Of a DNA stretch of 64,000 bases, positions 2,444 through 64,000 are shown in pieces. The translations under genes were made by a program, and so were the position numbers. This stretch comes from Pseudomonadota bacterium (GTDB lineage Bacteria > Pseudomonadota > Gammaproteobacteria > UBA1113): NCBI GenBank assembly GCA_021778015.1, contig JAJYCX010000005.1, positions 22,842 through 86,841 of the forward strand, in the 5' to 3' direction. The number at the start of each line of letters is the position of its first letter. The first letter of the stretch is position 1. The notes beneath the pieces were generated by a model that was not told the DNA's origin, made no database searches, and worked only from the letters and a program-made list of their open reading frames with translations.

Positions 2444-2475
2444 GTTTTGAGTGTTTTTGTGGAGTTGTCTGAGCG

Positions 2476-2493
2476 CAAGGATTAATATCCTTG
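2476..2493. repeat. short perfect hairpin in intergenic region
   Basis: CAAGGAT-TAAT-ATCCTTG forms a 7-bp stem with a 4-base loop in the 175-base gap between the hydrolase and the OmpA-like gene. A second imperfect hairpin (GGGCGGCT / AGCCGTCCC) follows at about 2508-2528. Neither is followed by a clear T-run, so a terminator role is uncertain. Confidence 0.35.
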
Positions 2494-2618
2494 TGTGTAT
2501 TTGTTTTGGGCGGCTCTCTAGCCGTCCCTACACTGTTCCGAGCCCCTCTTGTATTTTGCCTTATTTACGTGCATTATTCATCTTGAGAATTGTACTTTTA
2601 AACTCATTGGAGAAATTA

Positions 2619-3269
2619 ATGAACAAAATGATAAAAACGACAGCAGCTGCTTTAGCAGTGGTTGTAGGCGTCGCAGGTTGCGCAACGAACCCTTATACAG
2701 GTGAAAGAAAGGTCAGCGATACTGCTACAGGTGCAGGTATAGGTGCTTTAGTAGGCGCTGGTACCGGTGCTTTGATCGGTGGCGGTGAAGGTGCGGCTAT
2801 TGGTGCTGGCGCGGGCGCTTTAGTAGGTGGCGGTATTGGTTATTATATGGACCAAGAAAACAATAAATTACGCCAAGAATTGGTTGGTACCGGTGTGCAA
2901 GTTCAAAAGACACCAGATGGTATTAAACTAATCATGTCTTCTGATGTGACCTTTGCTACCAACAGCTCTGATATTAATTCAGGATTCTATCCTACATTAA
3001 ATTCAGTGGCTAAGGTGTTGAAGGAATATAACAAGACTAATGTAGTTGTCAGTGGTTTTACCGATAACACCGGTGGTGCTTCCTACAACCAAAGCCTGTC
3101 TGAAAAGCGTGCTCAAAGCGTGTCTAACTACTTAGCTGGACAAGGCGTTTCCAATAATCGCTTGTTTAGCCAAGGTTTCGGTGCGCGTAATCCTATCGCC
3201 AGCAATGCTACCGTCGAAGGCCGTAGTGCCAATCGCCGCGTAGAAATTATGCTGCGTCCTAATAAATAA
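2619..3269 (+). CDS. OmpA-family lipoprotein with glycine-zipper domain
   Basis: A 216-residue outer-membrane lipoprotein. The N-terminus has a hydrophobic signal ending in the lipobox VAGC (Cys about residue 20). It is followed by a glycine/alanine-rich zipper segment (about residues 35-75) and a C-terminal OmpA-like peptidoglycan-binding domain with the typical SGFTDNTG and RRVEI motifs. The layout matches the YiaD family. The ATG at 2619 was chosen because it begins the signal peptide, although the frame is open upstream to 2451. The gene stands alone and is followed by a strong hairpin. It probably tethers the outer membrane to peptidoglycan. Confidence 0.9.
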   Translation: MNKMIKTTAAALAVVVGVAGCATNPYTGERKVSDTATGAGIGALVGAGTGALIGGGEGAAIGAGAGALVGGGIGYYMDQENNKLRQELVGTGVQVQKTPDGIKLIMSSDVTFATNSSDINSGFYPTLNSVAKVLKEYNKTNVVVSGFTDNTGGASYNQSLSEKRAQSVSNYLAGQGVSNNRLFSQGFGARNPIASNATVEGRSANRRVEIMLRPNK

Positions 3270-3287
3270 TTAGGAAATAAATCTGAA

Positions 3288-3311
3288 AGAGGCCTTAGCA
3301 ATAAGGCCTCT
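3288..3311 (+). terminator. GNRA-capped hairpin after the OmpA-like gene
   Basis: A perfect 10-bp stem AGAGGCCTTA / TAAGGCCTCT closed by a GCAA tetraloop, 18 bases after the stop codon. There is only a weak T-tract after it, so it may act partly as an RNA-stabilising 3' end. Confidence 0.6.
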
Positions 3312-3326
3312 ATTGGATTAAATACA

Positions 3327-4346
3327 ATGAACAACGAACGTCTTCTACACAGCGTTAAAACAGCCATAGCCGTTGCCATCGGATTCTCTTTAACCCATAT
3401 TGTCACTTTTGCCTATGCACAATGGATCATTATCAGTATTTTGGTGGTCATGTGTGCACAAATTTATGTAGGCGGCGCATTGCAAAAAGGGTATTTGCGC
3501 TTCTTGGGAACGCTTTGTGGCTGCTGTATTGCGATTGTTGTAATAGAACTTTTCCATTCTTCTGTGCTCAGCGTATTTTTGGCCTTGATCATTGCCAGTT
3601 CTATTTTTAGTTATATCGCAGTTTCCGGTAAAGAAACTTTAAGTTATTTGGGTACCATGGGCGCTGTGACCTTAGCGCTCATTTTGCTGGGTAAAAGCGA
3701 TTCTTCTTTAAATTATGCCTCATCGCGATTTTTAGAAATCAGCATTGGTATTTTTATTGCCACAATGGTATCGCAATTTGTATTCCCTATTCATGCCAAA
3801 ACGCAGCTACGTAAAAGCCAAACAGAAACCTTAACGCAATTAAGAGAGTTTTATAATAAAACCCTCGTTATGGGTTTAGCCGAAGTGCAAACAGTGGAAC
3901 ATCACGATCTAGATGAAGAAATCGTTAAATTATTGCTAAAACAACGGCAATTGGCTAAAGATTCAGGGCGTGAACCCTTTGGAACTGCTTTTAACGTAGA
4001 TCATTTTGAACACTCTTTATTTTGTGAACGACAAATATTGCGTGCCATTAATTTTATGCATTTGGCACAGGATAAACTGCGTAGTGCGAAATTGTCTGAT
4101 AAAATGAATTTGTTGTTAAAAACATTTCATGAAGAAGTGTTGACGGCTTTGGATGCAATGGCTAAAAGTACTCCGGAAAAGACTAAATCATTTAAATTAC
4201 CTTCTTTAGACGCCATACAGCATTTACGCGCGGATAGCAAAGAGATGTTAGTATTACAGCCTATTCTCTATTTAGATGCGCTTATTTTTAACGCGGAGAT
4301 TATTGTAGAAAATATAGCGCTGCTGGCGAAATTGTATATTGAGTGA
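3327..4346 (+). CDS. FUSC-family (aromatic acid exporter-like) inner-membrane protein
   Basis: A 339-residue protein with about six hydrophobic segments in its first 160 residues, then a soluble helical C-terminal half. This is the layout of the FUSC / ArAE family (fusaric acid resistance, YccS/AaeB relatives), but with only one membrane module, about half the size of classical members. The first 20 residues (a SVKTAIAVAIGF helix) resemble the conserved first helix of the family. It may export aromatic or amphipathic compounds; the substrate is not visible. The gene is monocistronic and lies between a hairpin and an inverted-repeat element. Confidence 0.72.
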   Translation: MNNERLLHSVKTAIAVAIGFSLTHIVTFAYAQWIIISILVVMCAQIYVGGALQKGYLRFLGTLCGCCIAIVVIELFHSSVLSVFLALIIASSIFSYIAVSGKETLSYLGTMGAVTLALILLGKSDSSLNYASSRFLEISIGIFIATMVSQFVFPIHAKTQLRKSQTETLTQLREFYNKTLVMGLAEVQTVEHHDLDEEIVKLLLKQRQLAKDSGREPFGTAFNVDHFEHSLFCERQILRAINFMHLAQDKLRSAKLSDKMNLLLKTFHEEVLTALDAMAKSTPEKTKSFKLPSLDAIQHLRADSKEMLVLQPILYLDALIFNAEIIVENIALLAKLYIE

Positions 4347-50708: not shown

Positions 50709-50778
50709 CTACAGCTTGTGGTCTATTTTTGCACACGAACCACCTGAGCCTAGATTTGTCTATTTAAGGAACAATCGA

Positions 50779-51909
50779 TTGAGGAAACTGTTTGTAGCAT
50801 TAAGTTTGTTACTCATGTGCCTAGGGGCTAGTGCTGAGGAAAGCAGTGCTGATCTATTGGGGCTGGGCGCTGCACGTAGTTTCATCGGCGAAGCGCAGGC
50901 GCAAGCAAAAGCAAATACATCACAAACGAAGCCAGCTTCACCAGGACAGAACCCGGCGGGCAATGCCAATACAACGGCAAATGAAGATGATAGTGACGAA
51001 GGGCTAACGCAATTTATGAAAGGACAATCGCAAAGCAGTGATGCAGCTACGCCAAACGATACCACTTCTCAGCCAGCACCAAAACCAACTATGCCGCCCG
51101 TCAATCCTTGGGTTCCTTCTGATGAAAATGAGGCTTTAGCCAATGCGGGCGCGTTTCGTTCTGTAACACAAGATGCATTTCCGCTTAGTCCAAATCAAAT
51201 CAATGAGTTGCGTAATATGTTGGATCAAACCCAGCGTGCGCAAGCCGCGGCGCCTTATAAAACGCCGCCCGCACCTACATCTACTTCGTTGAACATCGAT
51301 CTAGCTCCCGGTGCCGTGCCACCAGTAGTTCGTTTGTCTAAAGGTTTTGTTTCTTCTTTGGTGTTTATTGACGGCACAGGCGCACCATGGCCTATTGATT
51401 CTTTTGATTTGGGTGACCCTACGGCATTTAATATCAGCTGGGATAAAAAAGGCAATACTCTCATGGTGCAAGCACGCCAAGACTATAGTTATGGTAATTT
51501 AGCGGTGAATCTTAAAAATTTAAATACTCCCGTGATGTTAACTTTGGTTCCTGGACAACGTGTGGTAGATTATAGAGTGGATATGCGTGTGCCTGGTCAA
51601 GGGCCTCAAGCGACAGTAGCGATAGGCGATGATCTGCCTGCTCCCGCAGATAATCAACTGTTAAATGTTTTAAATGGAATAGCGCCGATGAATGGCCGCA
51701 GGTTAAAAACAGAAAATGATTTTGCACAAGTCTGGATGGTAGGTGATGTGCTTTATCTGCGTAGCGCTTATGTGATTCTATCACCAGCATGGGTTGCTAA
51801 AATGTCCAGCGCAGATGGTATGAATGCTTATAAATTACCGCCATCGCCGTTGGTATTGTTAATGCGACATGGGCAAATTGTATCTGTCAAAATAGAGGGG
51901 TTGTCATAA
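50779..51909 (+). CDS. dotH: Type IVB secretion outer-membrane core protein DotH/IcmK
   Basis: DotH forms, with DotC and DotD, the outer-membrane disc of the Dot/Icm machine. The start is a TTG at 50779 (AAGGA upstream), giving a 376-residue protein with a clean signal peptide ending near ASA; an upstream TTG at 50716 would give an odd N-terminus. A low-complexity acidic/Pro region (about 30-110) is followed by the conserved core: LSPNQINELRNMLDQ, APGAVPPVVRLSKGFVSSLVFID, GAPWPIDSFDLGDP and LTLVPGQRVVDYRVDMRVPG. It overlaps dotG by one base. Confidence 0.93.
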   Translation: MRKLFVALSLLLMCLGASAEESSADLLGLGAARSFIGEAQAQAKANTSQTKPASPGQNPAGNANTTANEDDSDEGLTQFMKGQSQSSDAATPNDTTSQPAPKPTMPPVNPWVPSDENEALANAGAFRSVTQDAFPLSPNQINELRNMLDQTQRAQAAAPYKTPPAPTSTSLNIDLAPGAVPPVVRLSKGFVSSLVFIDGTGAPWPIDSFDLGDPTAFNISWDKKGNTLMVQARQDYSYGNLAVNLKNLNTPVMLTLVPGQRVVDYRVDMRVPGQGPQATVAIGDDLPAPADNQLLNVLNGIAPMNGRRLKTENDFAQVWMVGDVLYLRSAYVILSPAWVAKMSSADGMNAYKLPPSPLVLLMRHGQIVSVKIEGLS

Positions 51910-53264
51910 TGGCCAGCCGCTTAGATAATATTTCAAATTTGTTTTCTAATTTTAGAACGCGTAGCATCATTATCGTGACCGTGGTTATAATAGCCTTAGC
52001 TATTGTAGTCGGTATCATTCGTTTGATTAAAGCGCCCGCAGAACAAAACACTGCGAATACCGATTTAGTCAGCGCGCCTGTGCAAAAAACAGCACCAGGT
52101 TTAAATAGTACTTCCCCTGAGTACACGCAATTGCAACAACAATTGAATCAACAGCGTATTCAACAAGCGGAAAAAACCGGCGGTAGTGCTATTCCTACTC
52201 TAACGTATCAAAGTACTACGCCTACACAGTCACCAGCATCGTCGCAACCGGTTACTCCAACGAATGCTCCGGTAGACCCACAAATTGCCGCATTGCAAGA
52301 GCAGGTTGCAGAGCAAAATCAAGAACTCCAACAAGCTACGACTCAAGAAATCCAACAGGCAACAACGGATAAAAGTGGCGCTATGCGTGCACAAGCGCAA
52401 CAGCTATTGCAAGCATGGGGACAATCTCCTACGCAAGCGTATGAAGTTGGTATGAGTGACGAGCAACTTGCAGCAATGGGTATTATGACCCCAGGAAGTG
52501 CTACAACTGCCAGCGCATCCAGCAGTACAGCGCCAGTGCTCATTAAAGCGGGAGACATTCAATTTGCAGTGTTGGATACAGCAATCAATTCCGATGAGCC
52601 AGGCCCTGTGATGGCCACCGTTGTCTTGGGTCCATATAAGGGCGCGAAGTTATTAGGTGATTTAAGTACTACTAAGAATTTACCGGGGAGTAATGGTGGT
52701 GAAGCAGTCGTGGTGCGTTTTTCGGTCATGAGTTTTGCCGGTTTAGAGCGTAGCCTCTCGATTTCTGCAGTTGCTATCGATCCCAATACGGCGCGCACCG
52801 CTTTAGCCAGCGATGTGGATCACCATTATTTATTACGCTACGGTTCTTTGTTTGCTTCATCCTTCTTAAACGGTTATGGTAATGCTGCACTGCAAGCGGG
52901 TTCTAGCGTCTCGCAAAATTCAGATGGCGGCACGTTTACAACCTATCCTGATGCTAGCCCGAAACGAGAAGTGGCTGCTGGTTTTGGAACAGTAGGACAG
53001 AACTGGGGCCAACAATTAGGGGACACCTTTAATCGTCAAAATACCATCACCGTAAATGCGGGTGTAGGTGTAGGTATTTTATTTTTGACGGATGTGTCAG
53101 CAAACTCCAATACGCCGCCAACGAGTATTATACAAGCCGTTGCAACTAAGAACGTACAAGATCAATTGGCTGCAGAGAATGTAAGTACAACTAATGTACT
53201 GCCTATAGAGCAAGCCCAAAATCAATTAGTCCAACCTGTGCCTAATGCACAGAATAGGCAATAA
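51909..53264 (+). CDS. dotG: Type IVB secretion channel protein DotG/IcmE, short form
   Basis: DotG spans both membranes as the central channel. Here it has 451 residues, one transmembrane helix at 18-40, a glutamine-rich linker (about 70-190) and the conserved C-terminal channel domain (about 205-410; GDIQFAVLDTAINSDEPGPVMATV and the barrel-like SNGGEAVVVRFSVMSF). The long pentapeptide-like repeats of Legionella and Coxiella DotG (about 1000 residues) are absent, so it is closer in layout to conjugative TraO. No frameshift was seen; the gene runs between dotH and dotF. Confidence 0.93.
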   Translation: MASRLDNISNLFSNFRTRSIIIVTVVIIALAIVVGIIRLIKAPAEQNTANTDLVSAPVQKTAPGLNSTSPEYTQLQQQLNQQRIQQAEKTGGSAIPTLTYQSTTPTQSPASSQPVTPTNAPVDPQIAALQEQVAEQNQELQQATTQEIQQATTDKSGAMRAQAQQLLQAWGQSPTQAYEVGMSDEQLAAMGIMTPGSATTASASSSTAPVLIKAGDIQFAVLDTAINSDEPGPVMATVVLGPYKGAKLLGDLSTTKNLPGSNGGEAVVVRFSVMSFAGLERSLSISAVAIDPNTARTALASDVDHHYLLRYGSLFASSFLNGYGNAALQAGSSVSQNSDGGTFTTYPDASPKREVAAGFGTVGQNWGQQLGDTFNRQNTITVNAGVGVGILFLTDVSANSNTPPTSIIQAVATKNVQDQLAAENVSTTNVLPIEQAQNQLVQPVPNAQNRQ

Positions 53265-53279
53265 CAATAGGATGATGAT

Positions 53280-54332
53280 ATGAGCGATCTAAACCATCAC
53301 GATGAAGAAGAGTATCATTTCGATGACAGTGAAAATTTCGATTTTGGTGAGCATGATGCGGCTGCTGAAGAAGAATTTGTGGGTGACGAAGAAGTTGTAG
53401 AAGACACGGAAGCTAAAGCATGGAACAATGAACGGCCCGGCGCCGTATCTAGCAAAAAGCCGCTACCGAAACCGAATAAAAAAATAATTATGGTGGCAGG
53501 TGTGGTTGTTTTATTGATTGTGGGTTACTTTATAATGCCACGTAGTAAAACGCCCGCAGTGACCGCTATTCCTACCGCCACAGCGCCTAGAGAAATGGCT
53601 AAGGCCAAACCAGCTGTCACGCCAGTGTCAACTACTGAAAGCAATAATGGTGTCCCTACATCACAGAATACAATTCCTCCAGAGGAAAGTGCTGCTACGG
53701 CCAACGGTCCGAATACGGCACTAGACAATGCAACCAATGGAGCTTGGTTGAATACCGACAACAGCACACCGCCAGCCACCAGTAGCAATACGCAAGCAAC
53801 GACAGCCGCTCCTGAAGAGGTTACACAGACTACACAAACTACTACACAGACTGTGCAGCCCAACGCGCCAGATGAAACCAATTTGCCTATGCAAATGCAA
53901 ACACTGAATCAAGAAAATCAGACGCTCACCCTTAAATTGCAACAAGTTACCGCTCAAAGCGAAGCAACCGCAGCGCGGGCGAAGAATTTAGAAAAAGTAG
54001 TAGAGCAATTACAAGCGCAAGTAAAGCAAATGACACAAACATCTCCACCGCCTCTGCAAAGACCGCGGTCTGAAATGGCTGCAGAACCGTTATCTGCTAT
54101 GCCAAGCAGCAGTGCAGAGAGCACCGAGAGTAGGACACGCTTAGTGTATTATGTACAAGCGATTATTCCGGGTCGTGCGTGGATTGCGGATAGTAATGGC
54201 CGTATTATTACAGTGACTCAAGGCGATCGCGTAGAAGCGCTAAACAGCACTGTGAAGAACATCGATCCTATCAATGGTATTGTAACGCTGAGTAATGGCA
54301 GGCAGATTGAATACGGCATGGTGGCTCAATAG
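53280..54332 (+). CDS. dotF: Type IVB secretion inner-membrane protein DotF/IcmG
   Basis: A 350-residue DotF. An acidic cytoplasmic N-terminus (DDSENFDFGEHDAAAEEE) leads to one membrane helix at about 68-86. Then come a Thr/Pro-rich linker, a coiled coil at about 200-255, and a C-terminal domain with VYYVQAIIPGRAW-type residues at about 290-350 that I associate with IcmG of Legionella and Coxiella. It is the last gene of the trio, followed by a hairpin and the convergent parB. DotE and other dot/icm genes that often follow are missing here. Confidence 0.9.
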   Translation: MSDLNHHDEEEYHFDDSENFDFGEHDAAAEEEFVGDEEVVEDTEAKAWNNERPGAVSSKKPLPKPNKKIIMVAGVVVLLIVGYFIMPRSKTPAVTAIPTATAPREMAKAKPAVTPVSTTESNNGVPTSQNTIPPEESAATANGPNTALDNATNGAWLNTDNSTPPATSSNTQATTAAPEEVTQTTQTTTQTVQPNAPDETNLPMQMQTLNQENQTLTLKLQQVTAQSEATAARAKNLEKVVEQLQAQVKQMTQTSPPPLQRPRSEMAAEPLSAMPSSSAESTESRTRLVYYVQAIIPGRAWIADSNGRIITVTQGDRVEALNSTVKNIDPINGIVTLSNGRQIEYGMVAQ

Positions 54333-54343
54333 GGTTTTGTTTG

Positions 54344-54370
54344 TGGGGGTGGGCTTGCCCCCTTATTTTT
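54344..54370 (+). terminator. Terminator after dotF
   Basis: GGGGGTGGGCTTGCCCCC hairpin (GGGGG 54344-54348 with CCCCC 54358-54362, or the inner GGGC/GCCC) with a following TTATTTTT. It overlaps the 3' end of parB. Confidence 0.65.
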
Positions 54371-55154
54371 CTCCTACACCCAATCGCTGTAAAATACCGT
54401 CTAAAATTTCCAAATTTTGAAATTGAATGCGTAAAGCGCCGCGACCATTCTCATCATAATCTACTGCCACTGGCGAGCCGACTTGTTCGGCAAGTGTATT
54501 TTCTAAACGGGCAATGTTCGGATCTTTACGCTCAGTAGCGGAATTTTCTTTCTTGCCTAATTTAATCAAGCGTTCCAATTGTCGCACGCTTAAATCATTT
54601 TCTACGCACTGATGTGCTAATGGGTATTGTTCTTCTGTAGGCAAGCCTGCCAATAATTTACCATGACCCTCGCTTAAACAGCTATCAATAAGATATTGTT
54701 GTATTCTGCTATCTAATTTTAATAAACGCAATAAATTGCTAATAGCAGCGCGCGATTTTCCTACCAAGGCGCCGATCTCATCGTGTGTATAAACAAAATC
54801 TTCTTGTAACCGTAAATAGGCTTTGGCTTCTTCAATTAAATTTAAATCGCTGCGATTGATATTTTCAACAATGGCGGCTTGTAGGGCTTGCTCATCGCTG
54901 TATTCACCCACTAAGCAACTGACTGTAGATAATTCGGCAAGTTGACAGGCGCGCCAACGGCGTTCACCGGCGATGATTTCATAGCGGTTATGTCCTAACG
55001 CTCTAACGACGATGGGTTGTAATAATCCCCCCATTTGTCGTATTGATTGCGCCAATTCCGCTAAGGCTTCGGTATCAAAATGATGTCGCGGTTGAAAACG
55101 GCCGCGCTGTAAAGCTTCTATGGGTAGTTGTTGTAGCTCTACTTTTTTAGCCAT
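54363..55154 (-). CDS. parB: Chromosome-partitioning protein ParB
   Basis: A 263-residue ParB. It lacks the long ParA-interacting N-terminus and begins near the CTPase/DNA-binding core: RFQPR, GLLQPIVVR, YEIIAGERRWRAC (the GERRxRA CTP-binding motif), IVENINRSDLNLIEEA, and a helix-turn-helix around KSRAAISNLLRLLKL. The C-terminal dimerisation part ends IQFQNLEILDGILQRL. No parA is next to it; the neighbours are a polysaccharide exporter and dotF. parS sites were not searched for systematically. It is probably chromosomal. Confidence 0.93.
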   Translation of the reverse strand: MAKKVELQQLPIEALQRGRFQPRHHFDTEALAELAQSIRQMGGLLQPIVVRALGHNRYEIIAGERRWRACQLAELSTVSCLVGEYSDEQALQAAIVENINRSDLNLIEEAKAYLRLQEDFVYTHDEIGALVGKSRAAISNLLRLLKLDSRIQQYLIDSCLSEGHGKLLAGLPTEEQYPLAHQCVENDLSVRQLERLIKLGKKENSATERKDPNIARLENTLAEQVGSPVAVDYDENGRGALRIQFQNLEILDGILQRLGVGEK

Positions 55155-55159
55155 GGAGT

Positions 55160-55918
55160 TTAAGCTGTGGTGGGGTTAGCGGCGTCATAGGCTTTTAAAA
55201 CATCATCGACTAGCCCAAATGCTTTAACACGCCCCTTTTCCAGCCATAATGCTTTTTTACAAAATTTACGGACTAGATCAGTAGAATGCGAAGAGAATAC
55301 AACGATGTCGGATTCAGCAACCAATTGTGTCATACGCTGTTTTGACTTTTCCATGAAAGAAGAGTCGCCTACGCCCATAACCTCATCTAATAATAAAATC
55401 TCTGGCGAAAAACTGGTGGCAATGCTAAAAGCAAGGCGTAATTGCATACCGCTCGAGTAAGTACGTACGGGCATAGCTAAATACTCGCCTAATTCACTGA
55501 ATTCAGCGATGCTTGTTTTGCTAGCCTCAATCTCTTTCTTGGACATGCCACGTAATAAGCCACTTAAAACAATATTTTCATAGCCAGTAGATTCACTATC
55601 AATGCCTAAGCCTAAATCCAATAAAGATGAAATGCGACCTTTGATTTGTACACGGCCTATAGCCGGCGTATAGACTTTTGCTAAAACACGCAATAAGGTA
55701 CTTTTACCCGCACCGTTGTGGCCAATGAGCGCCAAGGTATCACCTGAAGACAGTTCCAAGCAAACGTCTTCTAAGGCGCGTACAAAAGTAATGCTACTGC
55801 TTTCTTGTTTTATGCTACCACCCGTGACCAGAGATACCAAACTTTTTTTCAGAGAACGGGTATTGGCACCATAAACAGGAAAATCTAAGGTAACACGGGA
55901 TAATTTTATAGTTGACAT
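55160..55918 (-). CDS. wzt: Polysaccharide-export ABC transporter ATPase (Wzt-type)
   Basis: A 252-residue ATPase with Walker A GHNGAGKST, the signature YSSGMQLRLAFS and Walker B ILLLDEVMGVGD. It lacks the C-terminal carbohydrate-recognition domain that some Wzt proteins use to select capped O-antigen, so it belongs with the TagH/KpsT-like, non-selective group. The stop is three bases before the start of parB and its ATG lies three bases after the wzm stop. It energises export of lipid-linked glycan from the cytoplasm. Confidence 0.9.
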   Translation of the reverse strand: MSTIKLSRVTLDFPVYGANTRSLKKSLVSLVTGGSIKQESSSITFVRALEDVCLELSSGDTLALIGHNGAGKSTLLRVLAKVYTPAIGRVQIKGRISSLLDLGLGIDSESTGYENIVLSGLLRGMSKKEIEASKTSIAEFSELGEYLAMPVRTYSSGMQLRLAFSIATSFSPEILLLDEVMGVGDSSFMEKSKQRMTQLVAESDIVVFSSHSTDLVRKFCKKALWLEKGRVKAFGLVDDVLKAYDAANPTTA

Positions 55919-55921
55919 ATA

Positions 55922-56752
55922 TTACACCCAAAACGCAATACGGTGACGACATCTGGCTAGAACAATGACCATCAAGGCTAAGCCCACTATCGCTAATATG
56001 ATGCAATAGGCTAAGGTATTGGCAGAAGGTATTTGCCCTAATAAAGGTGCGCGCAACAATTGTATTAACTGATAAAAAGGATTGAAGTTCATTAGTGCTT
56101 GTAATTTAGGAGATAGCATTGAGTGCTGCCACAAGATAGGCGTTATTAAAAAACTGATCTGCACTAAGCTTGCCACAATCGGTTTCATGTCGCGAAAACG
56201 GCTGCCGAGTATGGCCAGCAATAAACCAAAACTATAACCTATGCTCAAAAATAATATTAAACCAAAGATTAGATAAAACACCCCAGCAGAAGTAGGTGCA
56301 ATTTTGTAATAGATTAAAATAGGCAAAACAGGCAAAATATTGTGTAGCAAAACAATAAAATTACGGGTTAATAAGCGCAAAATGTAGATGGAAAAGGGTA
56401 AACAAGTCTGACGTATAAAACCAGAGTTTTCAACAAAGGCTTCGTTGGCTTCGAGGATAATGGTAGAAATGAAGGTCCAGGTGATTAAGCCTGTAGCCAA
56501 ATAAGGATAATAAGTAGATAAGTCGATCTTAAATAATTTTCCGTATAAAAACCCCATGCTGTAGATCATAATAGCGGTACTGAGGGTAATCCAAAAAGGT
56601 CCTAGCTGTGAGCGTCTATATCGCAAGCGTATATCTTGCCAGCCTAAGCTCCACCAAATACGCCAAGCAGCCAAACCTTGCCGCAGATCGGTAATTGCCG
56701 GGCGCAGATGGAAGGTGCGGGGGATAGGCGCTGTTGTTGTGCTAGTGTTCAA
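55922..56752 (-). CDS. wzm: Polysaccharide-export ABC transporter permease (Wzm-type)
   Basis: A 276-residue ABC-2-type permease with six membrane helices. RYRRSQLGPFWITLSTAIMIYSMGFLYG near the N-terminus is a hallmark of Wzm/TagG/KpsM permeases. Together with the ATPase three bases downstream it would export an O-antigen or teichoic-acid-like polymer. Downstream of the glycosyltransferase operon on the same strand, with 198 bases between. Confidence 0.92.
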   Translation of the reverse strand: MNTSTTTAPIPRTFHLRPAITDLRQGLAAWRIWWSLGWQDIRLRYRRSQLGPFWITLSTAIMIYSMGFLYGKLFKIDLSTYYPYLATGLITWTFISTIILEANEAFVENSGFIRQTCLPFSIYILRLLTRNFIVLLHNILPVLPILIYYKIAPTSAGVFYLIFGLILFLSIGYSFGLLLAILGSRFRDMKPIVASLVQISFLITPILWQHSMLSPKLQALMNFNPFYQLIQLLRAPLLGQIPSANTLAYCIILAIVGLALMVIVLARCRHRIAFWV

Positions 56753-56950: not shown

Positions 56951-58606
56951 CTATTTCATTTTCTCAGCAGTATAAACTTGTACTCTATCTAGATCACAGA
57001 TTTTGACAAAACGACGGTCATCAAAATAACCCCCATTCGCTATGGTTTCCCTTGACTGGCGATCGACCAATAAATCAGGCGTTATTTTGGGATCGGTGGT
57101 CTTTACTATGGAATCAAATTGATCTTCGGGTAAAGCGCCCGGCGCTAGTTTATCCATAACAATATAATCTATTGGTCTAGGGCAATATTTTCCCTTCGGG
57201 GATAAATTATTCCAAGCCATAGATATACAAGCCTTTGGGTAAGTAAGTGAATTGAAACCTGTAGGAATAGTGTAGTCTACAAATATATGGCCATCCCAGT
57301 TTTTATTTTTGATTCCAATGCAGTTTGCAATTTGGCGTGATTCATTAATGCCTCGAACAGACTGAAGGCTGATAATATAGTACGTTAGGTGATTCCAATT
57401 ACCGGTGGCATATTTATACTGGAACCATGATTTATGCGTTAAATCGAATAATTGTAGGAAAATAATGATAATCACCACCACTTTTCCTCCTCGCAAATTG
57501 CTAAAAAAGAAAAGTCCAAATAAAAAGAGAAAAGAAATCGCTGTAAAATATAAAACTGCACTCCCATTTTTCACTGAAAAAGAAAGATAAGAGCCGATGA
57601 GTAGCAGAGTACCGATACTAGCCAGTGCATCTCGTCGAAAAACTTTTGATCTAATGGCTTGCATTATCAATCCAAAGAAAAGGATTAACACATAGGTAGC
57701 ATTCGCTATACCACTGCCAAAGAAAATATAATAGAATCTTTCGGAAGGAGTAAGAGGAGTATTCTCAATTTTTGTTGTTCCGATAAAAGAAGAAAGTGTT
57801 TTCAAATATTGTTGCCCATAGATTGGATGCCGCAGATAGGCAAAAAGAGCGGGATTCGAAAACGCTATTAACAGAACAACAAACAATGCGGCCGGTAACA
57901 ATAAATCACGCGCAAGGATAGCGAAAGACTTGAATTCATATCGAAAGACAACTAAGGCAAAAATCAAAGGCGAAATTAATAGACCACTTAATTTAGTTCC
58001 TCCCGCAAGAGCCAAAGCGGCAGCAACAAACAGCCGTCCTCGTGTAGTCGAGGGGTTATCTGAAATCGCTAGATATAAACTAAGGACAGAGAAAAACATA
58101 ACTTCATTTACGGTCCCAAATCTAAGTGAGAAATATCCAAATGACGGAAAGAGCAAGAGTACAAGAAACCCGGCTGCCGTGATCCATTCAGGCATATCAT
58201 ATTTCTTAAAAATTTTTCTCATTAAAAGTAGAGTCATAATACCAAACGCTAACGATATCTGTCTGGGTGCAACAATGAGCGGCCAATCTATAGCAAAGTG
58301 TGTACTGATCCAATATAAGGGATAAGTAACGAATGCGAGAGGGAACCAGAAAATCCAGCCATAAGCATAGCCGTTTAGAACAGCTAGTTTATGGAGGTGA
58401 CCAGACTCGATCACTAGATGAATTTGTCTCAAAGTCGTTTGAAATGCTAAATCATCTATTTCACGGAATTGTATGATATCAAAACCAGATGAGAGAACAA
58501 AATTTTCGATAAAAAGAATGACCAAGATCGCGGCAGAAAGGCTATATGCTGCATAGATAAACGCAAGCTCAGTCTTGGTGCTAACCTGATTTTTGAACTT
58601 ATTCAT
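56951..58606 (-). CDS. Membrane glycosyltransferase-like (GT-C) protein
   Basis: A 551-residue protein with about 10-12 transmembrane helices in its first 420 residues and a soluble C-terminal domain of about 130 residues. The first loop holds an acidic DD (FREIDDLAFQ), as in GT-C enzymes that use polyprenyl-phosphate sugars. The C-terminal part is periplasmic-like without recognised motif. It follows the aldolase gene by 31 bases and is the last gene of the operon before wzm. Substrate and acceptor are unknown. Confidence 0.7.
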   Translation of the reverse strand: MNKFKNQVSTKTELAFIYAAYSLSAAILVILFIENFVLSSGFDIIQFREIDDLAFQTTLRQIHLVIESGHLHKLAVLNGYAYGWIFWFPLAFVTYPLYWISTHFAIDWPLIVAPRQISLAFGIMTLLLMRKIFKKYDMPEWITAAGFLVLLLFPSFGYFSLRFGTVNEVMFFSVLSLYLAISDNPSTTRGRLFVAAALALAGGTKLSGLLISPLIFALVVFRYEFKSFAILARDLLLPAALFVVLLIAFSNPALFAYLRHPIYGQQYLKTLSSFIGTTKIENTPLTPSERFYYIFFGSGIANATYVLILFFGLIMQAIRSKVFRRDALASIGTLLLIGSYLSFSVKNGSAVLYFTAISFLFLFGLFFFSNLRGGKVVVIIIIFLQLFDLTHKSWFQYKYATGNWNHLTYYIISLQSVRGINESRQIANCIGIKNKNWDGHIFVDYTIPTGFNSLTYPKACISMAWNNLSPKGKYCPRPIDYIVMDKLAPGALPEDQFDSIVKTTDPKITPDLLVDRQSRETIANGGYFDDRRFVKICDLDRVQVYTAEKMK

Positions 58607-58637: not shown

Positions 58638-59660
58638 CTAAGGCTTATGCTGCTGTCTGTATTTCTCGGCGTCCCAGTCAATCAACTCCAGAACCTGCGC
58701 ATCAGATAAGGATCTCAGTTGCGACAGCGTTTGTTGACGTCGAAGGATCTCATAATAACAGAGCAATTGTTCGGCTTTTGCTTTGCTAAAAGCAGGAAGT
58801 ACATAAACCCCCTCTCCATAAATAAAAATCACTTCCGGCAGTTCATTCATTGTAACTCGGGTGCGCATAAATTCATCATAGGATTTATATACATAAGCCG
58901 CAGGACCTAAGAAAACAATGTGATCTGGATATAAAGCCCATTTTGTCTTTAGACAATTAAAATACTCTATATTTCTTGCAAGTTCATGCAAGGCATCATT
59001 TTGAAAATAAACATAGCCATCAACCTCTTTAGGCATAAATGATGCTTCTTGTTTTGGTAAAGACTTACCTTTGTTTGAGTTGAAAGTCAGAATTAGATCT
59101 TCAATAATCTGCTTAACTTTTGCAATAGAATCGGCGCCAACTACTAGTCCATGATTTCTAAGAAAAATCACGTTAACGCTTGGATTGTCAGCGATATGTT
59201 CCGAAACAGCTTGGGCGAGTTCTGCGCCGGGTTTAAAATAGTCAACCAATACCCATTTAACAGTATCACCTATTAAGGGGGGAAGATCAGCGAGTGGGTT
59301 GGCTCTCACCAGGTAAGCTAGGATTTCAACCGCATGCAGGTGTACAACCACTTTGTGTGGCATTAAAGCGTGCAGCATTGTTTCAATAGATGGTCTAAGG
59401 GTTGAATCACCCACCACTTTTGGTGTTACAGAAAAATTTTTCTGAGTCATTTCCTGCCGTAGATGAGGAAGGTCCACTGGGATAAAAATATCTTTTTTAT
59501 CTGCGTCAGCAAGCCATGTACCCGAGGCCTTTATCCAGAGTATATTCCCATCTTTCCATGAAACATTTCCCCCAGCTCCCTGAGTCAGTAATGGATCTTT
59601 GCCAATTTGGGCACAATATAGTTTAACCTGCTCTGCAGTTGTTGGAATTAGCGGACTCAT
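58638..59660 (-). CDS. Class II aldolase/adducin-family protein
   Basis: A 340-residue class II aldolase/adducin domain protein, longer than sugar aldolases of about 220 residues by a C-terminal extension. It has the GGNVSW start, the SIETMLHALMP segment, zinc ligands HLHAVE and RNHGLVVG, typical of L-fuculose-1-phosphate or ribulose-5-phosphate-type aldolases/epimerases. The start ATG 59660 overlaps the HAD stop by four bases. It probably acts on a sugar phosphate feeding the glycan. Confidence 0.82.
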   Translation of the reverse strand: MSPLIPTTAEQVKLYCAQIGKDPLLTQGAGGNVSWKDGNILWIKASGTWLADADKKDIFIPVDLPHLRQEMTQKNFSVTPKVVGDSTLRPSIETMLHALMPHKVVVHLHAVEILAYLVRANPLADLPPLIGDTVKWVLVDYFKPGAELAQAVSEHIADNPSVNVIFLRNHGLVVGADSIAKVKQIIEDLILTFNSNKGKSLPKQEASFMPKEVDGYVYFQNDALHELARNIEYFNCLKTKWALYPDHIVFLGPAAYVYKSYDEFMRTRVTMNELPEVIFIYGEGVYVLPAFSKAKAEQLLCYYEILRRQQTLSQLRSLSDAQVLELIDWDAEKYRQQHKP

Positions 59661-60406
59661 CTTTCTTCGGCCAACTTTGCGATCAATTTTCTCAATTCGG
59701 CGAACTCGTTAAAGGATGCATCGGGCGCATTCGCATTTGTACCCAACTCAACGCCAGCATGCATCTTTTGAAGCGTCACGGCATTGATTTTTTCTCGAGC
59801 CCCATGTATATCATTCACAGGATTGTCGCCGATCATCCAGATACAGTCACCTTTAGGACGCATTTTCTGGAGGGCAATTTGAAAGGATGCTTCATGTGGT
59901 TTATCAAAACCAGCTTCTTCACTGGTAACGATATAGTCAAAATAATGATCTAGTCCAAAGTAAACTACCTTTCTGAATTGAATCTGTGCGGTCAGGTCGG
60001 TGACAATCGCGGTCGGAATGCCGAGCAAACGAATGTCGTCCAGCAATTCTTTTACGCCATCAAATAAAACAGCATTGCTTAGAAACGTTCTCCAATAGGT
60101 CTGTTCAAAATCCAAGGCTAAGAGGACTTGAGAACCCAAGCCCATGATCTCAAGCATACGCTGAAGGTAAAGTAAGCGACTATGGGAGGATGCAGTATCC
60201 TTCAATCGGGTTTTAACCTGATTTCTGGCCTCTTTAAAAGCTTTATCAAAATCTTCCGGTGAGATTGAAAAAGTGCTGACCACTTTGTCCCGTACCGCTT
60301 GCTGTGCGGCAGCATGCGCCGGGTCATAAGGATATAGTGTATTATCTGTATCGAATAAGAAAGCATCTGGTAGACGCGTAAATCGTTCTTGATTATAGAT
60401 CTTCAT
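59657..60406 (-). CDS. HAD-family hydrolase (phosphatase)
   Basis: A 249-residue haloacid-dehalogenase-like hydrolase: LFDTDNTLYPYD (nucleophile and acid Asp19/Asp21), IVTDLTAQ (motif II), a lysine in FDKPHEASF and MIGDNPVNDIHGA (metal motif). It resembles pyrimidine-nucleotidase or phosphoglycolate-phosphatase types and probably dephosphorylates a sugar phosphate. It starts with ATG 60406, whose A is the last base of the stop of the upstream fusion gene (TAATG), and overlaps the aldolase gene by four bases. Confidence 0.88.
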   Translation of the reverse strand: MKIYNQERFTRLPDAFLFDTDNTLYPYDPAHAAAQQAVRDKVVSTFSISPEDFDKAFKEARNQVKTRLKDTASSHSRLLYLQRMLEIMGLGSQVLLALDFEQTYWRTFLSNAVLFDGVKELLDDIRLLGIPTAIVTDLTAQIQFRKVVYFGLDHYFDYIVTSEEAGFDKPHEASFQIALQKMRPKGDCIWMIGDNPVNDIHGAREKINAVTLQKMHAGVELGTNANAPDASFNEFAELRKLIAKLAEER

Positions 60407-62454
60407 TATATAAATCGCTTTGTTAAGGTTTGGTTGATATGAGACAGAGTGATTAACTGCATTAACCCTGCCATGCCATCTTGCCATTTAGGCGGAATGT
60501 CTAAGAATTCCAGAACACGTGGGCACAACATCTCTGCAGCCAGCGCAACGTCTGCTGCGAATGTTTCCCCTTCGATAGTCATCTGCATTTCGCCGCCCAC
60601 ATCACTGATGATGTCGACGTGCAGCCCACAGACACCAACTAAAACACGGTGCAGCGAGAGCTCGTTGAATCTATGCCGTGTTCTGACTACCAATTTCAGA
60701 CGGAGGGGGTGTGTATCGTCCAGATCTTCCAGCATCCGCGGATGAATGGGATGCAAGGAAAGGATTAGATCGGCATAGGCCAATTGAAGTCGGATAAACC
60801 GTTCAGAATCAGATTCTCTTTTTTCAAATGAGTTAAGTACTTGTTCAATCGTGTGGCCTCGTTGGTGGACATCTCGTTTCAATTTAAAATGCCGACGTAA
60901 TCCCTCATCAATATCGAGATATACCTTCATATTGTAACATTCTCTGAGTATGGGGAGATAAAGCGCATGCAGACCGCTAGCGATAATGAAGTCGTTACTC
61001 CTAATTCGGAATGGCTTGCTTCTTTTCCCTGTTTGATGGTTGTAATGTATGGACTGGATGCTTTTTCCATCAATTAGAGAAATGAGATCATTACAAAAAC
61101 CTTCTAGATCGTTAGCCATAGGGTTGAGATGGGTCATCACCTGCCATATGGGTTTTTGCCTATCCCAAAGATGGTAGTCGTCACCCGAGAGCTTAACGAC
61201 AGAATGACCTCCAAAAAGGCCTGCGATGGAATCTGAAAAGGTATCTTTGCCAGAGCCAGAATCACCTGCGATACCGATAACAAAAGGTTTACGGCTCAGT
61301 CTAAAAAAGTTATTACGACTGATTGTCTCGCGCCAGATTCGAATGGCCAGCACTATGCCTATGACCACCATGGCGGTATGTACAAGTGAGGCTGCCTGGT
61401 TTCCTAAGTATCCCGTTATGTGGAGTGCACTCTTTAAATCAAATCCTGGCGCATTCGAGAATAGGATAGGTGTGGTCAGTAGGATACTCAGAACATACAA
61501 AGCAGAAAATATCCCAATCAATAGGATGGCGATTCGCCCGCTCATTGCCTGATAAAGAACAAGAAAAGGAATATTCCAAACAAACCAACCGGGCATAGTC
61601 GGGGTCATCAGAACGATTAACAAAAAAGCCATTCCCGTTATCGCTTGAAATAAATCAAAGTTCAGACGTCGCACTCGCCATACGAGGTAAAGCATAACCA
61701 TATAGATCAATGGCACTATGTAGACAAAAATATTCTCACCCAAGCTGAAGGCAACGCTATAAATTTTTCCCATCTCCGGATTGCCGAACAGCATTTGCAG
61801 GCCAGCACTAGAGAAAAGAAAAGGCACGCCAAGAATCAGTGCACAGACAAAAAAGCCTAATAGAAATTGGGAAATACGCTGCTGTAAAGCTTTATTTTTG
61901 TATAGATAGATTATAAAAAATGGTAACGCAATCACCATGCTCAACTTGGCTGAGATCGCTGCCGCACACAAAACACCGGCCATTTTTAGCTTAACGCGTT
62001 GAATAAAGAATATTGACAAGATTAAGAGCAACGCAGGGATTAGGTCGTTGAGCCCTAGCGCGTAACTAGCGAGAATGATAATGGGAGATAGCCAATAGAC
62101 AGCCAGGAGCAGACGTTGGCGTCCCGGTAAAAGGCGATGAAGCGTAATCAACAAACAGAAATCAGCTGCCAACAATGTCAGCCCATATCCATACTGCATA
62201 GGAGCGCCGATTAGCTTGGCAGCCAGTGTTAGCGGCAAGAAAGCCACCCACATCGCATAGCCATAAGGAAACGCTACTGGCGTCCCTCCTGCAGCTATCC
62301 ATCCTGACCAGGGGTCTAGTGTTAGCGAAGAAATACTGGCATTCAAAAACGGAACATACCAGACGGATACTGCAAGCGGGATTATACTAATGATCAGGGC
62401 TAAACGAATTATAAGTCCCAAAAAAAACATTGGCTGCAAATATAATTTTTTCAT
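60406..62454 (-). CDS. Fusion of GT-C-like membrane domain with uridine-kinase-like domain
   Basis: A 682-residue protein from ATG 62454 with AAGGAG upstream. Residues 1 to about 375 contain some 11-12 membrane helices; the DPW of the first loop and the overall layout resemble GT-C glycosyltransferases. From about residue 388 a soluble kinase domain follows: Walker A GDSGSGKDT (about 393-401), DDYHLWDR, the Y-H-N-H-Q-T-G loop, SGLHALYLP and RHFKLKRDVHQRG, all of the uridine kinase/phosphoribulokinase family. The two domains lie in one frame without a break. It overlaps both neighbours (ATGA and TAATG). A role in both making and using an activated sugar is inferred. Confidence 0.82.
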   Translation of the reverse strand: MKKLYLQPMFFLGLIIRLALIISIIPLAVSVWYVPFLNASISSLTLDPWSGWIAAGGTPVAFPYGYAMWVAFLPLTLAAKLIGAPMQYGYGLTLLAADFCLLITLHRLLPGRQRLLLAVYWLSPIIILASYALGLNDLIPALLLILSIFFIQRVKLKMAGVLCAAAISAKLSMVIALPFFIIYLYKNKALQQRISQFLLGFFVCALILGVPFLFSSAGLQMLFGNPEMGKIYSVAFSLGENIFVYIVPLIYMVMLYLVWRVRRLNFDLFQAITGMAFLLIVLMTPTMPGWFVWNIPFLVLYQAMSGRIAILLIGIFSALYVLSILLTTPILFSNAPGFDLKSALHITGYLGNQAASLVHTAMVVIGIVLAIRIWRETISRNNFFRLSRKPFVIGIAGDSGSGKDTFSDSIAGLFGGHSVVKLSGDDYHLWDRQKPIWQVMTHLNPMANDLEGFCNDLISLIDGKSIQSIHYNHQTGKRSKPFRIRSNDFIIASGLHALYLPILRECYNMKVYLDIDEGLRRHFKLKRDVHQRGHTIEQVLNSFEKRESDSERFIRLQLAYADLILSLHPIHPRMLEDLDDTHPLRLKLVVRTRHRFNELSLHRVLVGVCGLHVDIISDVGGEMQMTIEGETFAADVALAAEMLCPRVLEFLDIPPKWQDGMAGLMQLITLSHINQTLTKRFI

Positions 62455-63056
62455 TGTGGAAATATCTCCTTTTCCCACAGCTCTGGGTGCTTCGTGCAAA
62501 CAGCATCCGACTCAATGCCCCGCTTTTTCAGTAGGGATGCCAATGCGGGAATTTCAGTTTCAGCATCCCGTCCCTGTAATTCTGGGGAAACCAGGCAGAG
62601 CTTGAATCCAGCACTTTTGAGGCGCTGAGCATCATCTACACTCAGAGGGAAGTGAGTAAAACAGTCCACCCAAACCCAATCTACTTTGCCTGCTAAAGTC
62701 AGTGCTGTTTCAATCGACTCAAACTCCGACACCCGAACGGCGCAGCGATGCTCGCCCGCTTTTGACCATTTTACCAGAAATGGAAACGATTGATCTAAGA
62801 AAAAATAATCATCAATTCCTTTTGCGGCCATAAGCGCTATAAGACGGGCTTCTAAGCCTTCTTCTTTGACATTAAGAATCAAGGTTCCATGCTGATAAGC
62901 CTCAATCCACTCATCAAAAGATTCACCTGCAACGAAAGGGTCATGATGTATGATCAACTTTTGTCCTTCACTTCGGATGTCTACTTCGACGCCATATTTG
63001 TGGTTAGTTGCTCGAAGTTCAGCGATGGTGTTGCGACGATGCGTAATGATATACAT
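62451..63056 (-). CDS. Glycerophosphodiester phosphodiesterase-like protein
   Basis: A 201-residue TIM-barrel-type GDPD/PLC-like protein. Catalytic-site candidates are His6-Arg7 (ITHRRN), Glu24 and Asp26 (GVEVDIRS) and His38 (IHHDP). It is shorter than typical GDPD (240-270), with a minimal barrel. It begins immediately before the upstream GT-C stop and overlaps the fusion gene by four bases. In a glycan operon, a phosphodiester (glycerol-phosphate-type) polymer substrate is possible. Confidence 0.75.
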   Translation of the reverse strand: MYIITHRRNTIAELRATNHKYGVEVDIRSEGQKLIIHHDPFVAGESFDEWIEAYQHGTLILNVKEEGLEARLIALMAAKGIDDYFFLDQSFPFLVKWSKAGEHRCAVRVSEFESIETALTLAGKVDWVWVDCFTHFPLSVDDAQRLKSAGFKLCLVSPELQGRDAETEIPALASLLKKRGIESDAVCTKHPELWEKEIFPQ

Positions 63057-64000
63057 TTAAGTGCTACCTATTGAATTTGTGAATACAAAAAAATCGCCGC
63101 AGCTGCCATAAAAATAAAGGGCATCATCTTCGGTGAGCATTGATTTAAAGTTAAAACTGTTTCCTAGCAACCTTGAACCAATCAATATCATTGTGGAATC
63201 TCTGGATATATCGGCTACAAAAGTGGCTTCTTTGGGCGCATGCAAGCTAGAACGAAACAATGAGGGGTCTGAGAATTCTAACTTGTCGACAATATGTTTA
63301 GGCTGATACTTGTCAATTAAATTCTGCAAGCAAAGCGTGTTTTCTGGAAACTGTTTGATTAACTCGATTTGTTGGGCTTTTTGACCAATTTGCAGAGTTG
63401 TGTAGCCAATAGTGAAGAAGAAATTTGCAAGAAAAACAAAAAATGTTATTGTAATTATTGCAAAATCAATTCTGTAGACAGGCTGGTTTTTTATGCTGGA
63501 ATCCAACATCATTCCAGTGCAATATAACACAACGGGAATAATAGAAAACCAATACCAGCCGTATGCATCTGGCGATGCAACGATAATAGCGCCTGTGCCC
63601 ACAATAGCGATTACACATGGAAGGGCAATCTTGGGTATTTTGTATATGGACATTAATAGTAATACTATTAACAACAATGGGGGCATAACAAAAGTTGAGA
63701 GGGAGCCCACCAATATGTTATCCCAGGCCCAAAGATTCTCAGTGAGTGCTGAACCTATTCTTTCAAAAGAGATCACGGAGTGTTGCGTTGTCGATGTCAA
63801 TAACAAAGTTTTTATATAGTTAACAAGATTAAATGGGTTTGCGAGCCACATTCCCGCCAAAAAGACACAAAAAAGTTTAAAATATTTATTTATACGAATT
63901 CCATTAATGGCAAGCAGAATAATTAATGGCGCTGCTATTATTTTTATTCCAGATGCAATTCCAAGTAAAAGTGAGGCATAACCCTTCTTGTCTAGATCGG
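63057..64000 (-). CDS. Membrane glycosyltransferase-like protein, partial (start beyond window)
   Basis: The frame is open to the right edge. It has about seven hydrophobic helices, including SGIKIIAAPL near the edge, then a soluble C-terminal stretch of about 110 residues. This resembles GT-C/DUF2029-type enzymes. It is the first visible gene of the minus-strand glycan operon, adjoining the GDPD-like gene with no gap. The substrate is unknown. Confidence 0.65.
   Translation of the reverse strand, partial: DLDKKGYASLLLGIASGIKIIAAPLIILLAINGIRINKYFKLFCVFLAGMWLANPFNLVNYIKTLLLTSTTQHSVISFERIGSALTENLWAWDNILVGSLSTFVMPPLLLIVLLLMSIYKIPKIALPCVIAIVGTGAIIVASPDAYGWYWFSIIPVVLYCTGMMLDSSIKNQPVYRIDFAIITITFFVFLANFFFTIGYTTLQIGQKAQQIELIKQFPENTLCLQNLIDKYQPKHIVDKLEFSDPSLFRSSLHAPKEATFVADISRDSTMILIGSRLLGNSFNFKSMLTEDDALYFYGSCGDFFVFTNSIGST

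Follow-up and report, generated by a model that had tools for sequence, protein, structure and literature searches.

A recurrent gene cassette that joins a phosphoribulokinase-like kinase to a putative glycosyltransferase and may supply its own sugar donor

The window analyzed here, a stretch of 64,000 nucleotides from a gammaproteobacterial assembly (GCA_021778015.1, contig JAJYCX010000005.1), ends inside an operon that carries a conserved gene cassette. On its minus strand, the window encodes a GDPD-like protein of 201 residues (62451..63056); a 682-residue fusion (60406..62454) of an N-terminal GT-C-like membrane part (residues ~1-385) with a C-terminal phosphoribulokinase-like part (residues ~386-682); a 249-residue HAD phosphatase (59657..60406); and a 340-residue class II aldolase of the FucA/RhaD type (58638..59660). 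Comparison with homologues favors the starts at 62454 (fusion) and 60406 (HAD), those in the list of open reading frames (ORFs) being too long. The end of the window is the end of its contig (C29), and the operon goes on in a second contig, C3 (positions given as in locus L003), with minus-strand genes for a 556-residue protein with two tandem nucleotidyltransferase domains (NTPd, 1659-3329), GtrA (1270-1662), and GT2 (581-1273), which are spaced by 2 bp or overlap by 4 bp. The genes in the window are packed just as tightly: that for a further membrane-like protein, GT-C2, stops at 63057, directly next to the GDPD-like gene (overlap 0 bp), and the overlaps that follow are 4 bp (GDPD-like/fusion), 1 bp (fusion/HAD), and 4 bp (HAD/aldolase). 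Pfam recognizes the kinase (PRK, PF00485, E 4.5e-33), the HAD (PF00702, 4.2e-21), the aldolase (Aldolase_II, 2.1e-17), GtrA (PF04138, E 8e-17), and GT2 (PF00535, E 3e-26, a family match only); neither the GDPD-like protein nor the putative GT-C proteins GT-C1 and GT-C2 have a Pfam match.

NTPd, GtrA, GT2, the GDPD-like protein, the fusion, the HAD, and the aldolase form a conserved unit. A scan of a genome collection of 84,980 species with a GDPD-like profile returned 330 stretches with a relative, the best 80 of which were kept. Co-occurrence was counted in the 54 loci among these that extend more than 7 kb to each side of the GDPD-like gene, near-duplicates included: the fusion and the HAD are present in all 54, NTPd in 53, the aldolase in 52, GT2 in 50, and GtrA in 41, the last a lower bound since the GtrA profile was built from three sequences. 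A search starting from the HAD gave the same picture. It is present in 3 of 179 other genomes among relatives and, in a phylum-wide search, in 4 of 397 others, and in 7 of 7 the GDPD-like gene and the kinase fusion lie beside it. The same neighbors recur in nearly every homologous locus read, and the gene set is therefore not chance. When ORFs from 83 loci were clustered, the commonest non-core family occurred in 13 (clusters viewed by sequence start only). In addition, the divergences of eight cassette domains are correlated over 52 loci (r = 0.52-0.87; 0.86 for kinase and HAD), with 28 of 28 pairs exceeding all 500 permutations. The 52 loci, out of 83, were those in which each domain covered at least 85% of its profile and the nucleotidyltransferase score was at least 250; GtrA was excluded, and L040, L053, L054, and L086 were removed. 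The original prediction had described five contiguous or overlapping genes, from GT-C2 to the aldolase, as a coupled operon and had named lack of co-occurrence as the finding that would speak against it. The opposite is seen: the spacing is as described, and the 54 loci bear out a true co-occurring set across genomes. That operon was nevertheless incomplete, NTPd, GtrA, and GT2 lying beyond the contig end.

The 80 kept loci come mostly from Pseudomonadota (Pseudomonas, Erwinia, Yersinia, Massilia, Polynucleobacter, Lysobacter, Roseomonas), and some are in metagenome-assembled genomes labeled Bacteroidetes, Planctomycetia, Acidobacteria, cyanobacterium, Geobacter, or Desulfobulbus, labels that may be wrong. 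There are signs that the cassette is mobile. The HAD was not found in any of the 5 genomes searched from the same genus or any of the 5 from the same family. Identity between the window and Solimicrobium silvestre is 91% for the HAD and 87% for the GDPD-like protein, and that with three further genomes of the same class as the window that carry the cassette is 58-70% and 59-65%, respectively; Solimicrobium may belong to this class as well. The entire cassette, together with a 586-residue protein that has no Pfam match, is found on a 33-kb E. coli IncR plasmid, with an IS26 transposase ~1.6 kb beyond it. Among 5,426 complete E. coli genomes it occurs in 2, plasmid-borne both times, and it is also present on Azospirillum and Hirschia plasmids, with an altered gene order in Hirschia. 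Three plasmid records annotate the genes piecemeal as uridine kinase, phosphoribulokinase, HAD family hydrolase, and aldolase family. The Yersinia proxima cassette DNA has no near match among E. coli genomes, and carriage by phage was rejected, as the GDPD-like protein matches 0 of 50,697 phage records. In the insect symbiont Candidatus Regiella insecticola (L060), the cassette looks decayed, with split frames and transposase-like ORFs within the fusion gene. A Desulfobulbus metagenome-assembled genome (L080) has a divergent cassette in which methyltransferase-like and GHMP-kinase-like ORFs, judged from their translations, are inserted and no aldolase was found in the stretch.

The kinase half of the fusion resembles phosphoribulokinase. 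Its top NCBIfam model is the phosphoribulokinase PRK07429 (193 bits versus 87 for uridine kinase), and among the members scanned both the phosphoribulokinase and the uridine kinase models match 34 of 34, with best E values of 1e-62 and 2e-29, respectively. (Family scans used chosen members, 34 for the kinase, 32 for the HAD, and 26 for the aldolase, and the first-ranking family was shown for the first member only.) Phosphoribulokinases also head the PDB matches, and the cyanobacterial PRK-like or 'uridine kinase' chains 9qkn, 9qko, and 9qkp, which align with this half, C-terminal part included, may be its closest relatives of known structure. The residues that we take to form the ribulose 5-phosphate site of phosphoribulokinase (D42, H45, R49, K165, R168, and R173, R. 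sphaeroides numbering) are retained: in the DxxHxxxR motif, the Asp is present in 78 of 78 sequences, the His in 77, and the Arg in 75, and the Lys/Arg/Asp/Arg stretch is kept, at least 95% of rows retaining its Lys and both Arg. The P-loop, both of these motifs, and a C-terminal part alignable to 9qko are thus common to the cassette kinase and the class II phosphoribulokinase of the Calvin cycle. Unlike the latter, the cassette kinase is fused to a GT-C-like part, has lost the Walker-B Glu (see below), and occurs in hosts in which no Rubisco was found. No Rubisco scored over the cut-off in the window's genome (84% complete) or in 8 other host genomes, the Desulfobulbus genome giving a sub-threshold match (20.6 versus 30.1 bits). 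Because of this, a role in carbon fixation was rejected for the cassette and is improbable for the kinase, and a product of the ribulose 1,5-bisphosphate (RuBP) type would have no carboxylating outlet. A phosphoribulokinase-like enzyme joined to a glycosyltransferase-like protein in such hosts was not expected.

The HAD and the aldolase also have relatives in pentulose metabolism. The top NCBIfam model of the HAD is the haloarchaeal RuBP 5-phosphatase NF053830 (169 bits, with the next model at 98), which matches 32 of 32 scanned members, and D19 and D21 of the DxD nucleophile motif are present in at least 97% of 73 rows. The original prediction named a kinase and a HAD phosphatase but missed both the likeness to phosphoribulokinase and this nearest named family. 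According to the available part of its description, the haloarchaeal enzyme had notable activity on RuBP only, of 12 sugar phosphates, and its product, ribulose 1-phosphate, was in a cyclized form (PMC9700705), which would fit later use as a furanose. In the aldolase, the three Zn-binding His (H99, H101, H161) and the catalytic Glu (E85) are found in at least 97% of 73 rows. The Glu presumably corresponds to E73 of FucA, which aligns to the aldolase better than AraD does; an epimerase of the AraD type was rejected, that alignment being weaker and partial. The top models are bifunctional enzymes of the RhaD type, which match 26 of 26 scanned members. Of the cassette's enzymes, the aldolase is the least conserved (52% identity to Solimicrobium versus 78-91% for other cassette parts) and was not found in 2 of the 54 well-covered loci.

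The GDPD-like protein, highly conserved even across distant clades, carries HR, ExD, HHD, and NVK motifs. H6, R7, E24, D26, H38, D39, and K64 are present in at least 97% of 72 rows, and the protein is 67-71% identical even to those of Lysobacter, Pseudoroseomonas, Desulfobulbus, and Polymorphobacter. The position before the Lys, which we take to be the usual GDPD metal Glu, is Asn. PF03009 (GDPD) matches none of four cassette proteins and one of five proteins of a sister family (23.9 versus 23.6 bits). With a joint profile of the cassette and sister families, the first PDB match is a GDPD (E 1e-6), and it is only via the sister family that the cassette protein reaches the GDPD superfamily. Both domains of NTPd retain the GxGxRF...KP and CD motifs; domain 1 weakly matches 6-deoxy-heptose pathway proteins (E 5e-6), and NTPd also has weak matches of the IspD type.

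The sister family, 28-34% identical to the cassette protein, belongs to a module on plasmids of Scandinavium, Rhizobium, Ruegeria, P. aeruginosa, and Sinorhizobium. Of the 23 plasmid records with identity below 60%, five were examined (L096, L097, L102, L103, L104). A HAD adjoins the GDPD-like gene in 5 of 5, the cassette HAD profile not matching these HADs, and nucleotidyltransferases recorded as 'glycosyltransferase family 2' lie within ~5 kb, with Pfam NTP_transferase in 4 of the 5 loci. WavE is annotated in 3 of the 5. Neither a kinase nor an aldolase was found with the cassette profiles in these five stretches, suggesting that nucleotidyltransferase, GDPD-like protein, and HAD may represent a common chemistry to which the kinase and aldolase were added for the cassette's sugar. 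Judged by the description in a table, a set like the sister module may also be present in the C. jejuni HS1/8 and HS65 capsule loci: the insertion in Table 4 of the source, seen in part, comprises a 619-residue pyrophosphorylase, a 241-residue 'glycosyl transferase', a 219-residue HAD, and a 212-residue unknown protein, similar in sizes and neighbors, and differs in that no kinase or aldolase is listed there and its genes are given as unknown or by general names (PMC7901785). The original prediction had also named a match to a described capsule locus as counting against it; the one result that bears on this is the resemblance of the sister module, in the portion of that source available, to a Campylobacter insertion (PMC7901785).

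GtrA, GtrB, and a Gtr protein of the GT-C type make up periplasmic O-antigen glycosylation systems. The cassette is similar in grouping a GtrA-family flippase with a GT2-family protein and a putative GT-C-like transferase as a single mobile block, and it differs in the fusion of its GT-C-like part to a phosphoribulokinase-like kinase and in bringing NTPd, the GDPD-like protein, HAD, and aldolase as a dedicated donor pathway. It is called here a three-component glycosylation system with an undescribed donor pathway. From its family, GT2 would load an activated sugar onto undecaprenyl phosphate, GtrA would flip the lipid-linked sugar, and the GT-C half of the fusion would transfer it, as in O-antigen glucosylation. 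The sugar would be prepared by the phosphoribulokinase-like domain, which may phosphorylate a pentulose 5-phosphate at C1, with D-ribulose 5-phosphate the likeliest substrate, to give the 1,5-bisphosphate; by the HAD, which would take off the 5-phosphate to leave a ketose 1-phosphate able to close to a furanose; and by both domains of NTPd together with the GDPD-like enzyme, which would convert this to a nucleotide-activated donor. The aldolase probably cleaves or equilibrates the ketose 1-phosphate (dihydroxyacetone phosphate plus glycolaldehyde). In sum, there is about an even chance that this is a horizontally moving, self-contained cassette for decorating a surface glycan with one unusual sugar from the periplasmic side, using its own pentulose-phosphate donor pathway. 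We infer every reaction, and the sugar itself, from observed family assignments and retained active-site residues. Of the earlier claims, the making, phosphorylating, and dephosphorylating of an unusual sugar phosphate would fit these families, and linkage to a lipid carrier is likely given GT2 and GtrA on the next contig. No description of the gene set was found in the openly licensed PubMed Central (PMC) literature, which omits most subscription papers, and within those bounds the statement that no named pathway has this set holds. The P. protegens OBC3 O-antigen cluster was rejected as the same system, the available part of its description naming fcl, fcl2, galE, and oafA, not cassette enzymes.

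Several points weigh against this scheme. Its enzyme activities are predicted. Family scores fall below the curated cut-offs for both the kinase (193 versus 236 bits for phosphoribulokinase) and the HAD (169 versus 330 bits for NF053830). The residue that we take to be the Walker-B Glu of phosphoribulokinase, E131, is replaced in 78 of 78 kinases (Ser in 64, Thr in 10, Asn in 3, Gly in 1), and consequently catalysis or the acceptor may differ. The aldolase scores only 21 bits against the ribulose 1-phosphate aldolase NF053831, matched by 11 of the 26 scanned members, and its part in donor synthesis is hard to place. The GDPD-like step is likewise left without explanation: the cassette profile alone retrieves no GDPD structure, and UgpQ, considered as a direct relative, gave no reliable match. 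The putative GT-C identity of the fusion half is drawn from 11 hydrophobic segments, a sub-threshold ALG3 match, and weak similarity to GPI-mannosyltransferase 1 (E 8e-5). Among the well-covered loci, GtrA was not found in 13 of 54 and GT2 in 4 of 54. Finally, the correlated divergence in part reflects shared ancestry.

Other readings place the same enzymes differently. Kinase, HAD, and nucleotidyltransferase follow one another in the ADP/GDP-heptose pathways, and the cassette could apply this logic to a pentose: anomeric phosphorylation of a pentose 5-phosphate, removal of the 5-phosphate by the HAD, and nucleotidyl transfer to a nucleoside diphosphate (NDP)-pentofuranose (ribo- or arabinofuranose). 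The weak heptose-pathway match of NTPd domain 1 fits as well. However, this leaves the two-domain build of NTPd, the GDPD-like protein, and the aldolase unaccounted for, and the kinase retains the presumed ribulose 5-phosphate site; we consider it unlikely. Rather doubtful, too, is decoration with a phospho-ketose or phospho-polyol, in which a ketose 1-phosphate would be activated at its primary carbon (CDP-ribulose type) and added as a phosphoester-linked residue, with the GDPD-like enzyme making or cleaving a phosphodiester. GDPD enzymes do act on phosphodiesters, and the IspD-type matches of NTPd are compatible with it. Nevertheless, systems of GT2, GtrA, and GT-C employ polyprenyl-P-sugars, and no core reductase or TagF-type transferase is seen among the ORF families of the 83 loci, as viewed by sequence start. 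A precedent is found in Campylobacter, where CTP and fructose 6-phosphate give CDP-6-fructose; as described in the accessible part of the source, this CDP-6-fructose/CDP-6-glucitol pathway likewise uses a nucleotidyltransferase to activate a ketose phosphate for a surface glycan, and differs in that a reductase follows and in having two enzymes only, with no kinase, HAD, GDPD-like protein, or aldolase (PMC10918830).

A specific form of the pentulose donor pathway would employ every cassette part but the aldolase. As proposed, kinase and HAD would shift the phosphate from C5 to C1, and the first nucleotidyltransferase domain would activate the ketose 1-phosphate; the GDPD-like enzyme, via the neighboring anomeric hydroxyl, would form and open a 1,2-cyclic phosphate to give the anomeric 2-phosphate, which the second nucleotidyltransferase domain would convert to an NDP-ketofuranose for lipid loading. 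That a ketofuranose is activated at its anomeric carbon in this way, and that the sister module does likewise for another ketose, is improbable as a complete account.

A carbon-salvage route, in which kinase, HAD, and aldolase run ribulose 5-phosphate to dihydroxyacetone phosphate and glycolaldehyde beside glycan genes by chance, is very improbable. The HAD match and the retained class II site of the aldolase agree with it, but the kinase shares a reading frame with the GT-C-like part in every gene that is unsplit and not truncated at a contig end, and its divergence correlates with those of NTPd, GT2, and the GDPD-like protein. The haloarchaeal non-carboxylating pentose bisphosphate pathway that it would copy, so far as the available part of its description goes, resembles the cassette in its RuBP 5-phosphatase, to which the HAD is nearest, and in its class II aldolase acting on a ketose 1-phosphate, and differs in obtaining RuBP from ribose-1,5-bisphosphate isomerase, the cassette's perhaps coming from the phosphoribulokinase-like kinase (PMC9700705). 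The cassette aldolase is, moreover, nearest another subfamily and stands in a glycan context. No non-core family occurs in more than 13 of the 83 loci; ribose 1,5-bisphosphate isomerase (R15P isomerase), R1P kinase, and glycolaldehyde reductase were not searched by name. Least credible is the earlier view of a capsule or O-antigen operon that exports its product through the adjacent Wzm/Wzt, since this exporter, although directly 3' in the window and close to the cassette again in two Erwinia loci, Azospirillum, and Solimicrobium, was not found near it in the remaining loci of the 104 searched or among the genes listed around the E. coli plasmid cassette (gene table incomplete).

If the donor of the preferred pathway is a pentulose, the cassette offers a way into how rare ketofuranoses such as xylulose are activated, for which no explanation was found in the literature searched. 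Xylulose has been reported, in the part of the source available, from E. coli O95, Y. enterocolitica O:10, C. jejuni RM1221, E. saburreum T15, and Devosia submarina (PMC8707391). With 330 relatives of one gene and a plasmid copy, the cassette may change surface antigens and phage receptors in many genera.

Of the other glycan genes, GT-C1 and GT-C2 are accessory, and Wzm/Wzt are neighbors outside the core. After a 31-bp gap, the aldolase gene is followed by that of GT-C1, a membrane-like protein of 551 residues (56951..58606), and, after a further 198-bp gap, by those of the ABC permease Wzm (55922..56752; ABC2_membrane, 4.7e-15; nearest NCBIfam, galactan export) and ATPase Wzt (55160..55918; ABC_tran, 9.7e-18), all on the minus strand. 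Both GT-C1 and GT-C2 are putative GT-C proteins, so called from appearance alone. Among the 104 loci, GT-C1 recurs in 6 others, 3' of the aldolase in 5 and beside NTPd in L010, and a protein similar to GT-C2 in 1 other. Own copies aside, Wzm matches 5 and Wzt 7, the latter including one iron-type ABC ATPase and two in sister-module loci. Such rarity does not agree with their earlier inclusion in the set, and the exporter, a neighbor near a cassette in just 4 loci, was rejected as core. Methyltransferase-type genes (two families, one representative each tested) are inserted 5' of GT2 in 12 of 83 loci, which suggests occasional methylation of the sugar or of its acceptor. Large proteins with no Pfam match are inserted at several cassette positions.

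At the junction, 126 bp (63868..63993) are identical to the start of contig C3. The 3' part of the GT-C2 gene lies in the window (63057..63993, minus strand), the rest on contig C3 (L003 127-578), and reading through the exact overlap gives a protein of 462 residues. The final 7 bases of the window (63994-64000) are unlike contig C3 and resemble the first bases of an Illumina adapter, which makes an assembly artifact the probable cause of the contig end.

Beside the operon, the window holds genes of a Dot/Icm-type (IVB) secretion system (50716-54332), encoding DotH/IcmK, a DotG/IcmE-like protein, and a third coiled-coil protein; a ParB-like gene, named by reading (54363-55154), lies between these and the glycan genes. 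Upstream, on contig C3 (L003 3733-8618), translations suggest genes resembling those of rmlB, pgi, rmlA, and FdtA as well as an aminotransferase of the DegT type, a set that points to an amino-deoxy-sugar O-antigen locus.

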